This document shows positions 6,574-11,884 of a stretch of DNA of 44,453 nt, piece after piece. This stretch comes from Alphaproteobacteria bacterium. Its GTDB lineage: Bacteria > Pseudomonadota > Alphaproteobacteria > Rhizobiales > JAKIUO01. Each line of letters starts with the position of its first letter. The first letter of the stretch is position 1. The translations under genes were made by a program, and so were the position numbers. The stretch spans positions 1 through 44,453 of the forward strand of contig JAJRRW010000016.1 of assembly GCA_024279115.1 (NCBI GenBank). The letters run 5' to 3'. The notes under the pieces are model-generated. The model had not been told where the DNA came from and searched no databases. It saw only the letters and a list, made by a program, of their open reading frames with translations.

Positions 6574-7994
6574 CTGCCTGCATAATAGCGCAAAAGACCA
6601 ATGCCTTTCCAGACACCCTTGAGAGGGCTCCATTCCAGCAGCTTGGGCTCGCCCTGCCCATATGTTTCGATGAAGCCGTAAAAATAGGGGTATTTCTTGT
6701 GATAGACATAATATTTGCCATCTGGCAAACGGGACAAAGACCATCCCGAAACCGGTTCGCCAATCAGCGCTCCCTCGTAGCTGGGCAATGTGCCTGTGAG
6801 GCGCTTCAAGCCCTTGCGCGTGCCGCCAAAGAATCGATCCGCTTTGAGAGAGCGTTGATAATAGGCGATTGCTTCGTCGGTATTTTTTCGTATCTCGTGG
6901 ATCTGGGCAATCAGCTTGAGCGCTTCGGGATGTTCTTTGGCGATTTCCAAGACGGTCGCGAAGTCATCAAGCGCATTGTCATAGTCTCCCTTGCGTTTGG
7001 CAATCCGCCCCCTCGACAGATAGGATTGAGCACTGGTGGGATCCAGTTCCACAGCCTTGTCGGCATCGCTAAATGCTTTTTCATAGTTTTTCACAAAGCT
7101 GAAACACAAGGCACGCAATGCATAGGCCTTGGCGTGCCCGGGAGCAAGGTCGATGGTTTTGGTATAATCGGAGATCGCCGGCAGATAGTCACTCAAGCCC
7201 TGATAGGCCTGGGCGCGCTCAAAATAGAGCTGCGGCTCCATGCGTGCCAGAGCAATCGCATGGGTGTAGTCTTTGACAGCCAAGCGGTGTTTCTTCAAAT
7301 TGGCAAAGGTGCGGGCTCTGGACAAAAAAACCATGCCATAAGTCTTGTTGAGCTTGACGGCGCGCGAAAAATCTCGCAAGGCCGCATAGTTTTTGCCTTT
7401 CGACAAGAACGCCCGCCCGCGCCCATTATGGGGGACCGCATTGAGGGTCAAATATCTGACGGCGGCATCGAAATCATCAACAGCTTTGTCGAGATTTCCC
7501 AACTCGAAATGAGCACTGCCTCGATTATTGTAAGCAACTCCATAAGTCGGGGCAATCTCGATGGCCTTCGAAAACACCTCAACAGCATCTTTGGTGCGGT
7601 TGAGATCCATATAGACATTGCCCATATTATTGTAGACTTGTGGATATTGGGCGTTCAGAGCAATGGCAGCGCTAAAATCAGCCAGAGCCTTGTCGGTTTG
7701 TTTCAATCGCCAATAGGCAACACCGCGGTCGCTATGAATAGTCGCCTTGCGAATGTCAGACAGCTTGTCATATTCCAGCGCCTGATCATATGCCTTGATG
7801 GCCTGCTGATTTTTACCACGCAACAAGGCCGCTGCTGCTTGTCGCACCAGCAGCACAGAGCGTTCAGCGACGGTCTCCGCCGTGACGTTCGACGGGGCCA
7901 TGGGGAACATGGCCAGCGCAAGGGCAATCAATACGAATATTTTCGTAAAGCTGGATCCTTGTCTTATGTTCTGACTATTGTCCCGGCTCATCAT
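6519..7994 (-). CDS. Exported tetratricopeptide-repeat protein (frameshifted near its 3' end)
   Basis: As read, 491 residues. A cleavable-looking signal peptide (FVLIALALAMFPMAPSNVTA, about residues 18-37) is followed by some nine or ten TPR units (for example GVAYWRLKQTDKALADFSAA, NNRGSAHFELGNLDKAVDDF, SRGRIAKRKGDYDNALDDFA), indicating a periplasmic or envelope scaffold. After the repeats comes a non-TPR stretch with aromatic residues (KYYVYHKKYPYFYGFIETYG). The last 15 or so residues are probably wrong: the frame breaks at a G-run near 6563-6573 and coding continues in another frame to 6214. The frame is open to 8129, but the ATG pair at 7989-7994 is preferred because GAGGCG lies just upstream and the signal peptide follows directly. 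It is divergent from glnB. Function unknown. Confidence 0.8.
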   Translation of the reverse strand: MMSRDNSQNIRQGSSFTKIFVLIALALAMFPMAPSNVTAETVAERSVLLVRQAAAALLRGKNQQAIKAYDQALEYDKLSDIRKATIHSDRGVAYWRLKQTDKALADFSAAIALNAQYPQVYNNMGNVYMDLNRTKDAVEVFSKAIEIAPTYGVAYNNRGSAHFELGNLDKAVDDFDAAVRYLTLNAVPHNGRGRAFLSKGKNYAALRDFSRAVKLNKTYGMVFLSRARTFANLKKHRLAVKDYTHAIALARMEPQLYFERAQAYQGLSDYLPAISDYTKTIDLAPGHAKAYALRALCFSFVKNYEKAFSDADKAVELDPTSAQSYLSRGRIAKRKGDYDNALDDFATVLEIAKEHPEALKLIAQIHEIRKNTDEAIAYYQRSLKADRFFGGTRKGLKRLTGTLPSYEGALIGEPVSGWSLSRLPDGKYYVYHKKYPYFYGFIETYGQGEPKLLEWSPLKGVWKGIGLLRYYAGSKGEGEMPRHLNITPLSI

Positions 7995-8701
<707 letters not shown>

Positions 8702-8760
8702 ACAAATATTTCTCGTGAGCGCTGTGTCGCTTGTTTCTTCAAGTTTGGATGGAAGATTTG

Positions 8761-9099
8761 ATGGGCGATGATAAAGAGGCCAAAAAGCTTCAAGAACAGA
8801 TAAAGCAGGTCCGTGAGAGCCTGCCAAAAGATAGCAAAAGTCCTCAGGACAGGGCTTTTTATGAAACCACTTTTAACAAGTTGACGGAAATCGCCGACCT
8901 TTTTTCAACCAAAGAGGTTGCCGCTCCAAAGACTGGCCATCCAGCCAAAGTGCTGGCAACACCTGCGGTATCTGGTGCCAGAGGAATAGAGGCAGTTACT
9001 GCTTCTGCACCGGACCTCGCCGCGACGATGGTTTCTGGTTCGCGTGAACCAGAAACAGTCAATAACACAAACCCGAAAGCATCAGAAAAGGGAACAAAT
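8761..9099 (+). other. Open frame continuous with glnA: possible N-terminal extension or small protein
   Basis: A 113-codon stretch in the glnB-glnA spacer, open and in frame with glnA with no stop in between. It begins with an ATG preceded by GGAAGATTTG (a good ribosome binding site). Its first 50 codons encode a charged helix-like sequence ([20 protein letters not shown], later [16 protein letters not shown]), then an Ala/Pro/Thr/Ser-rich linker. Type I glutamine synthetases normally start at the site I assign to glnA (9100), with its own Shine-Dalgarno. The stretch could therefore be a separate small gene that lost its stop, an N-terminal extension giving a 582-residue protein, or a non-coding leader open by chance. 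Its second half carries strong inverted repeats. Confidence 0.4.
8941..9056 (+). promoter_or_regulatory. Cluster of RNA hairpins upstream of glnA
   Basis: Several inverted repeats lie back to back in the glnA leader: CCAGC/GCTGG at 8941-8956 (6-base loop); a nested element at 8974-9011, where GGTGC(C)AGA can pair with TCTGCACC, or AGAGGCA (8988-8994) can pair with TGCTTCT (9000-9006), the two sharing bases and so mutually exclusive; and a perfect 11-bp stem GTTTCTGGTTC/GAACCAGAAAC at 9031-9056 with tetraloop GCGT. The last ends 43 bases before the glnA ATG and has no U-tract, so it is not a simple terminator. It may be a processing, stability or attenuation element setting the GlnB:GlnA ratio. 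The function is inferred. Confidence 0.5.
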
Positions 9100-10509
<1,410 letters not shown>

Positions 10510-10530
10510 TCGACCATTTCGGCTATTTTG

Positions 10531-10572
10531 AAAAGGGGCGGTGCCAGATGGCATCGCCCCTTTTTGTTTTTT
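10531..10572 (+). terminator. Rho-independent terminator of glnA
   Basis: AAAAGGGGCG and GTGCC on the left arm pair with GGCAT and CGCCCCTTTT on the right around the loop AGAT, a 15-bp stem with one G-U pair, followed by TTTTTGTTTTTT. It begins 22 bases after the glnA stop. Confidence 0.93.
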
Positions 10573-10651
10573 GGACCATAGCCGCTTGCCAGATTGGCAA
10601 ACTGCTATAAAATAACTCGCATCTGCAAATATCGCGCAACGGAGACTGTTT

Positions 10652-11884
10652 ATGGGCGACCTCCCCGCCGAAAATGATTTTGATGTGGCGATTATCGGCG
10701 CTGGTGCGGCTGGTCTTGCCACAGCTTGCGCGATGGCACTGGAAGATCTCAACATCATCTGTTTTGACAAAACATTTGGTTTTGATGGCCAAAAAACAGG
10801 CGATACCCGTACCATCGCTCTGCTGCAAAACTCGGTCTATCTGTTGCAAAATCTTGGTGTTTGGGAGGATTGCCTGCCATTTGCCGAACCGTTGAATATC
10901 ATGAAAGTGATTGATGATACGGGACGCTTCCCCCCGGTCCCTGACGCCTCATTTGATGCCAGCGAATTAGGGACCGATCCCTTTGGTTACAATATTGCCA
11001 ATGATCGTTTGGTGTCCATATTGGCGCAACATGCTCGACGCACCCCTAATATCACCCTGTTTGAGACCGACCATGTCGCGCATATCGAAAATCTTGCGAC
11101 CAAAGCCATTGTTACGCCCTTTGAAGGCCAGCCCGTAACGGCATCGCTGGTGGTCGGGGCTGATGGTGCCAATTCGCTGGCGCGCCGCTCAGCCGACATC
11201 ACAACGACCGACTGGAGCTATAATCAAACGGCGATTGCCTGCTGGTTCAGTCATAGCCTGCCCCATAAAAACATCTCTACCGAATTTCACCGCACCTCTG
11301 GTCCGCTGGTGCTGGTTCCCATGCAGGGAAACAAGTGCGGACTTGTCTGGGTGGAGACGCCAGAGCAGGCCAAGCGCCTGCTAGCACTCGATGAAAAAGG
11401 CTTCAAGCAACACCTCAATGACGCCATTCACGGCACGCTGGGAGAGCTCCTTGACGTCAGCAAAAGATCGTCATTTCCCTTGTCGGGGCTGGTTGCCAAT
11501 CGCTTTGGCAAGGGCCGGACAGTGCTTGTTAGTCATGCAGCGCATGTCCTGCCGCCGATTGGCGCGCAAGGGCTTAATCTGGGGCTGCGCGATGCCGCGA
11601 TGATCGCGGATATTGCCTGCAAAGCGCATATCCGCGCGATGGACCCTGGCGGCGCTGAAATCATTGCTCAATATGACGAGTTACGGCGCGCCGATATCAT
11701 GAGCCGCACATTCACCGTCGATTTTCTCAACCGCTCCTTGATAGATGGCTGGTTTCCACCGCTGCAAGCGACCAGAGCCATTGGCGTGCAGCTGTTAAAG
11801 CTCATACCACCGCTGCGCAAGGCCGTTATGCGTGAGGGAATTGCCCCCCAGAATAATCTTCCTCCATTAATGCATTCACGTTGA
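10652..11884 (+). CDS. UbiH/UbiF/COQ6-family FAD-dependent hydroxylase
   Basis: A 410-residue flavoprotein monooxygenase of the family that hydroxylates the ubiquinone ring. The Rossmann dinucleotide fold is GAGAAG at residues 16-21, the family fingerprint GADGANSLAR lies near residue 170, and the second FAD-binding motif is HAAHVLPPIGAQGLNLGLRD (usually GDAAH; here SHAAH). A UbiH-like arginine segment, GDTRTIAL, is present near residue 50. Start ATG has GGAG 8 bases before it. It follows the glnA terminator as an independent unit and precedes an LpxL-like gene by 94 bases. Which ring position it acts on (UbiH, UbiF, UbiI or UbiL type) cannot be told from the sequence alone. Confidence 0.88.
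   Translation: MGDLPAENDFDVAIIGAGAAGLATACAMALEDLNIICFDKTFGFDGQKTGDTRTIALLQNSVYLLQNLGVWEDCLPFAEPLNIMKVIDDTGRFPPVPDASFDASELGTDPFGYNIANDRLVSILAQHARRTPNITLFETDHVAHIENLATKAIVTPFEGQPVTASLVVGADGANSLARRSADITTTDWSYNQTAIACWFSHSLPHKNISTEFHRTSGPLVLVPMQGNKCGLVWVETPEQAKRLLALDEKGFKQHLNDAIHGTLGELLDVSKRSSFPLSGLVANRFGKGRTVLVSHAAHVLPPIGAQGLNLGLRDAAMIADIACKAHIRAMDPGGAEIIAQYDELRRADIMSRTFTVDFLNRSLIDGWFPPLQATRAIGVQLLKLIPPLRKAVMREGIAPQNNLPPLMHSR

Follow-up and report, generated by a model that had tools for sequence, protein, structure and literature searches.

An in-frame N-terminal extension of glnA with RNA hairpins in its linker code and two candidate starts, conserved within an alphaproteobacterial genus

Few enzymes are as well studied and as highly conserved as glutamine synthetase. 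In Rhodospirillum rubrum, the glnBA mRNA is reportedly processed by cleavage between the two cistrons, leading to a separate glnA mRNA. The locus described here shows the same alphaproteobacterial arrangement, with predicted RNA hairpins separating glnB from the usual glnA start; a difference is that these hairpins are inside a reading frame that belongs to glnA. A second related situation is found in phage endolysins, where single genes with an in-frame internal start yield two polypeptides (PMC9430671). The two nested in-frame reading frames sharing a stop are alike in both cases, whereas the gene is here that of a central metabolic enzyme, conserved RNA pairing separates the two starts and the dual use is a proposal. 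In E. coli GlnA, the N-terminus lies at the face on which dodecamers stack head to head, a contact mediated by its exposed N-terminal helix (PMC13142944), so a domain added at this end could reach neighbouring dodecamers or partners. However, stacking in E. coli relies on helix 1 of the enzyme itself and not on an added domain as proposed here. Among the titles and abstract openings listed from the open-licence literature on GlnA extensions, internal starts, small-protein partners and glnB-glnA leaders, a description of this arrangement was not found.

The window, i.e., the whole stretch of DNA analysed, comprises 44,453 nt of Alphaproteobacteria bacterium GCA_024279115.1 (contig JAJRRW010000016.1, positions 1-44,453, forward strand), and its relevant features are collected in the table. 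Similar to other type I GlnA encoded downstream of glnB, the enzyme has an ordinary core, glnB lies directly upstream and GlnE is present. It differs from type I GlnA of the other families searched by a 114-residue N-terminal extension, with RNA hairpins in the code of the linker. The 2.83 Mb genome contains a single Gln-synt_C match, at glnA, and one glutamine synthetase match was found in each of four relatives of the same genus (G001 to G004). GlnA scores 659.3 bits against TIGR00653 (cut-off 429.15), which classifies it as a type I glutamine synthetase, and matches both PF03951 and PF00120 above their cut-offs. Its sequence contains DLYDLPP, which may be the site of the modified tyrosine of the adenylylated subtype, and the GlnE family was detected above cut-off in all five genomes of the genus. 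Where a closest match in another family was found, it shares 65-79% identity with the 469-residue core. The upstream glnB could be aligned in four of the five genomes, with a dN of 0.004-0.037.

Features of the glnB-glnA locus (positions in the window)
Feature	Position	Strand	Basis
sigma54-type promoter-like site	8286..8301	+	1 mismatch to pattern
glnB (PII protein, 112 aa)	8363..8701	+	open frame
G-rich ribosome-binding region of upstream start	8747..8755	+	anti-SD duplex -4.3 to -5.8 kcal/mol, 5 genomes
TTG, upstream start codon	8758..8760	+	at -342 in 5/5 genomes
long glnA reading frame (583 aa + stop)	8758..10509	+	open in 5/5 genus genomes
two-helix part, codons 2-50	8761..8907	+	dN/dS, AF2
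linker, codons 51-114, rich in Ala, Pro, Thr, Ser	8908..9099	+	dN/dS, pLDDT
hairpin A (outer stem 8965-8978/9007-9020, inner stem 8988-8996/8998-9006)	8965..9020	+	consensus folding
hairpin B (11-bp perfect stem, 4-nt loop)	9031..9056	+	inverted repeat, folding
Shine-Dalgarno AAGGGA of usual glnA start	9088..9093	+	kept in 5/5
canonical glnA, type I glutamine synthetase (469 aa + stop)	9100..10509	+	TIGR00653
terminator-like hairpin after glnA	10529..10566	+	17-pair stem and T run

The original prediction, made from this DNA alone, was that the spacer between glnB and glnA is free of stops in the glnA frame. This was confirmed: glnB ends at 8701, the usual ATG stands at 9100 and the 398 nt between them contain no stop in that frame, which stays open over the 127 codons preceding ATG 9100. 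The comparison with relatives that had been proposed as a check revealed neither stops nor frameshifts in the five genomes of the genus, four of which are close to one another, and all of them carry an in-frame extension of 114 codons, equal in length and frame. Each relative comes from its own MAG record, with two of the four originating in a single study, and their extensions are 78, 73, 72 and about 46% identical to that of the window (approximately 45-78%). In G004, the protein alignment requires codon gains and losses, yet the total length is unchanged. The same open frame in five out of five genomes shows that it is no assembly accident, and the suggestion that a stop had been lost through a missing base or an assembly error was consequently abandoned. 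The idea of a leader peptide ending before glnA also fell, because none of the five genomes has a stop codon at which it could end. The probability of finding 114 open codons in a random sequence is about 0.0014 if the pooled base composition of the extensions in the five genomes is assumed. A simple neutral simulation, run 20,000 times on an approximate tree, left all three close relatives open in 2.3% of cases and never attained the share of synonymous changes that is observed.

To determine how widely the extension occurs, its sequence from 8761 on served as query against 61 genomes (that of the window and 60 relatives). It was recovered with an E value of 9.3e-19 or better in the five genomes of the genus, and nothing below E 0.0035 was obtained in the 56 other genomes of the order. 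The best matches outside the genus, in G060, G031 and G049 (E 0.0035-0.007), are all located off the contig of the respective genome's best glutamine synthetase match and were taken as chance. All 61 genomes have a glutamine synthetase match, which in G010, G013 and G029 is to distant homologues only (34-37% identity). A profile built from the five extensions found five out of five when the family was searched. Among 385 genomes of the class, with at most 12 candidates scored per genome, its sole match was the genome of the window, and no homologue, stand-alone proteins included, was obtained at E<=0.001 in the 384 others. In a plasmid collection, no homologue was detected at E<=0.01. On present sampling, the extension thus appears to be confined to the genus. 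A search for a second copy within the genus returned one weak match, in G001 (E 0.012).

For the translation of this extension, the original prediction proposed ATG 8761 preceded by GGAAG (8751-8755). Both elements are present in the sequence, but the start that is conserved is TTG 8758, one codon upstream. It is the sole in-frame ATG, GTG or TTG upstream of ATG 9100 that is found at a constant distance in all five genomes, and in G001 a stop lies two codons upstream of it. The codon following it is ATG in three genomes, ATA in G001 and ATT in G004, which led to the rejection of ATG 8761 as a conserved start. The upstream ribosome-binding region is of moderate quality, 6-18% of background positions forming an anti-SD duplex as good or better. 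In the genome of the window, the spacing of GGAAG fits ATG 8761 better than TTG 8758, hence either of the neighbouring codons may be used there, with products differing by a single residue.

The proposed dN/dS comparison was restricted to the four close genomes, G004 being excluded because of saturated dS, and it pointed to amino-acid constraint. Codons 2-50 have a mean dS of 0.885 and a dN of 0.110 (dN/dS 0.12), indicating purifying selection on the encoded residues. For codons 51-105, dS drops to 0.366 with a dN of 0.156 (dN/dS 0.43), and dS is lower still in codons 106-114 (0.113) and in the first 36 codons of the core (0.159). The rest of the core has a dS of 0.842 and a dN of 0.015, corresponding to a ratio of 0.02.

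The part with the low ratio coincides with a confidently predicted fold. AF2 applied to the five extensions gave helices at residues 3-21 and 29-49, with block means of pLDDT of 73 for residues 1-10 and of 94, 94, 96 and 88 for residues 11-50. After residue 50, the block means are of low confidence (42-58) and the linker is predicted to be disordered. In a prediction of the full-length protein, the same two helices were recovered (5-21 and 29-49), with a poorly modelled glutamine synthetase core (mean pLDDT 46). The extension matched Pfam below the cut-off only, the best family being DUF6694 (E 0.018, 15.9 bits against 24.3), had no match in NCBIfam and none among solved structures searched by Foldseek at E<=0.001. 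The best PDB sequence match, haemoglobin (E 0.0036), was taken as chance.

RNA hairpins in the linker DNA are an addition to what had been read from the sequence. On alignment A5, hairpin A has 90.8% of the cells of its outer stem and 88.9% of those of its inner stem paired, with five and one pairs, respectively, changed on both sides. The outer stem belongs to the single-sequence minimum-energy fold of three of the five genomes (that of the window, G002 and G001) and is absent from those of G003 and G004. The inner stem as drawn occurs in the folds of the window genome, G003 and G002, and is rearranged in G001. Hairpin B is part of the minimum-energy fold of all five, with 96.4% of 55 cells paired and two pairs changed on both sides. 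Taken alone, it is weaker, since 28 of 500 shuffles reach its percentage of pairing and 77 of 500 its double-changed pairs. Both hairpins together make up 33 pairs, of which 152 out of 165 cells are paired (92.1%), while slid partners pair in just 34-51% of cells. Eight pairs are changed on both sides (10 cells), although with five genomes, four of them close, this covariation rests on few events. None of 500 shuffles was as high in cells paired, in double changes or in covariation score. Further pair types were not above shuffles (204 out of 500 reach the observed value).

The comparison with synonymous alternatives points in the same direction. The RNA of codons 61-105 is more stable than expected from synonymous resampling in all five genomes (p of 0.020, 0.013, 0/300, 0/300 and 0.027), and codons 66-102 gave p values of 0.033, 0.033, 0.007, 0.013 and, in G004, 0.060. 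Codons 1-60 gave p 0.013 in the genome of the window and were not better than the null in the four others (0.24-0.61); under codon permutation, G001 reached p 0.040. The pairing in the linker code is conserved within the genus. A constraint on the RNA would account for the low dS of the linker, and the tolerance of a linker for its loose amino-acid constraint. The RNA model R1 matched, with at most 66 candidates scored per genome and stricter filters, at the glnA locus of the five genomes of the genus only among the 61. A small inverted repeat, CCAGC/GCTGG, is located upstream of hairpin A (8941-8956) in four of the five genomes, the exception being G004.

Downstream of the hairpins, the usual start retains the signals of an initiation site. 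The second Shine-Dalgarno that had been noted there is AAGGGA (9088-9093), and the motif reads AAGGGA in four genomes and AAGGGG in one. Its anti-SD duplex has an energy of -5.3 kcal/mol in four genomes and -7.8 in G004, and 1-12% of background positions do as well as the start signals of ATG 9100. Local folding around this codon is among the weakest 6-14% of positions. In codons 106-150 (9073-9207), 6 of 37 usable codons carry a synonymous change, which places this stretch at the low end of the 45-codon windows of the gene; windows from codon 151 on have a minimum of 0.37 and a mean of 0.59. This low value may also reflect another RNA structure; a stem predicted at 9119-9143, in the first core codons of glnA, is nearly invariant across the five genomes. 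In other families, the position aligned to ATG 9100 is a Met in 22 of 25 loci; in L007, L022 and L027, the alignment starts slightly further in, by a few residues. The sequences of all five genomes support the original suggestion of an N-terminal extension and two possible start sites.

A promoter-like site before glnB is shared within the genus as well. A sigma54-type site with one or two mismatches is located 76-77 nt before the glnB start in the four genomes with enough upstream DNA; the contig of G003 is too short for this comparison and also lacks the glnB start. Because sigma54-type matches are common by chance (54 in the window at <=2 mismatches, against 38 expected), it is the shared position before glnB that counts. 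A further site of this type occurs about 370 nt before glnB in G001 and G002. Inside the extension, no second sigma54-type site was found in the five genomes (<=2 mismatches, GG and GC kept), and sigma70-like sites between 8000 and 10700 are about as frequent as chance predicts (4 against 3.6).

The leaders of other families were compared in 25 of the 56 other genomes. A PII gene precedes glnA in 24 of the 25 loci, with spacers of 63-376 nt that do not exceed 238 nt in 22 of the 24; the remaining locus, L013, begins 26 nt before the match and contains no PII gene. Open frames before glnA can be long in these families (up to 557 aa). Those of L023, L029 and L031 were rejected as extensions, having spacers of 68-98 nt and no in-frame start before the ordinary one. 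The folding z-score of the leaders ranges from -2.7 to +1.2 in 23 of 24 and is -5.2 in L030, so that no common older hairpin is evident.

We consider it fairly probable that glnA yields both a long form of 583 residues and the ordinary form of 469 residues, the latter initiated internally, downstream of a structured RNA leader whose sequence also encodes the linker. The spacer would be the 5′ part of glnA itself, and glnB and glnA would probably form one operon expressed from the sigma54-type promoter. Initiation at UUG 8758, or at AUG 8761 where present, would produce GlnA-long, in which the whole type I glutamine synthetase is preceded by a two-helix domain (about 50 residues) and a disordered linker (about 64 residues). 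Initiation at AUG 9100, which has a conserved Shine-Dalgarno of its own, would produce ordinary GlnA. We infer the use of both starts from sequence comparison. The linker stretch would carry two messages, a permissive amino-acid linker and, directly before the internal start, an RNA leader with hairpins. This RNA would probably separate or tune the two products, through processing of the mRNA with a protected 5′ end or through control or insulation of entry at AUG 9100; the idea of processing leans on the report on R. rubrum.

Several alternatives were weighed against this two-product reading. The long form could be the only one, with TTG 8758 as the true start, ATG 9100 encoding Met-115 and the helices forming an obligatory N-terminal domain. 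This fits the unbroken frame and the constraint on codons 2-50 throughout the genus, as well as the single glutamine synthetase match per genome, which leaves no second gene for a short form. However, AAGGGR is rightly spaced from ATG 9100 in all five genomes, local folding there is among the weakest 6-14% of positions, synonymous change is at its lowest and the aligned residue is a Met in 22 of 25 loci of other families, making an exclusively long enzyme rather unlikely. Conversely, 8702-9099 could be a structured untranslated leader that is open by chance, only the short form being made. We regard this as improbable: codons 2-50 have a dS as high as the core, yet a dN/dS of 0.12, codons 1-60 fold no better than the null of synonymous resampling in four of five genomes, the frame is open in all five and the predicted helices are confident. 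What such a leader would explain is the conserved pairing just upstream of the Shine-Dalgarno and the low dS and weak amino-acid constraint of the linker.

A separate small gene fused to glnA by a recent loss of its stop, or a sequencing error, seems very improbable. The occurrence of the extension in one genus only and its composition of a folded part and a linker would suit a fusion, but the equal length and frame in five out of five genomes and the lack of a stand-alone homologue at E<=0.001 in 384 genomes of the class (at most 12 candidates scored in each) and 56 of the order speak against both.

In the reading with two products, the exposed N-terminus would place the two-helix domain at the outer ring face of the dodecamer, where this domain could serve as a docking or self-association module. 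The exposure of the N-terminus in E. coli GlnA (PMC13142944) makes a role in docking or stacking plausible, and the domain may bind a neighbouring dodecamer or a partner. More speculatively, and in our view less likely than not, the hairpins could form an RNA element that responds to nitrogen and determines the proportion of long and short subunits in the dodecamer; two-helix arms, variable in number, would then connect dodecamers with one another or with a partner (PII or GlnE, for example). In that case, the same DNA segment would at once encode a protein linker, act as regulatory RNA and form the start region of a central enzyme. A lineage combining a selected two-helix arm, a retained second start and conserved RNA pairing between the two would be a natural experiment on setting the subunit make-up of glutamine synthetase. 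The locus also illustrates that conserved coding sequence, in this case 342 bases, can be overlooked when a start is placed by homology only, here at 9100.

A search of 7900-10700 against Rfam 15 at E<=1, glutamine riboswitches included, gave no match over threshold in the leader. Two sub-threshold matches to ar35, an alphaproteobacterial sRNA family, were returned, both at the end of glnA. That at 10440-10568 (25.8 bits, cut-off 45) spans the glnA end and the terminator, and is perhaps just the terminator hairpin. An inverted repeat matching this terminator-like hairpin is also found 3′ of glnA in G001, G002 and G003.
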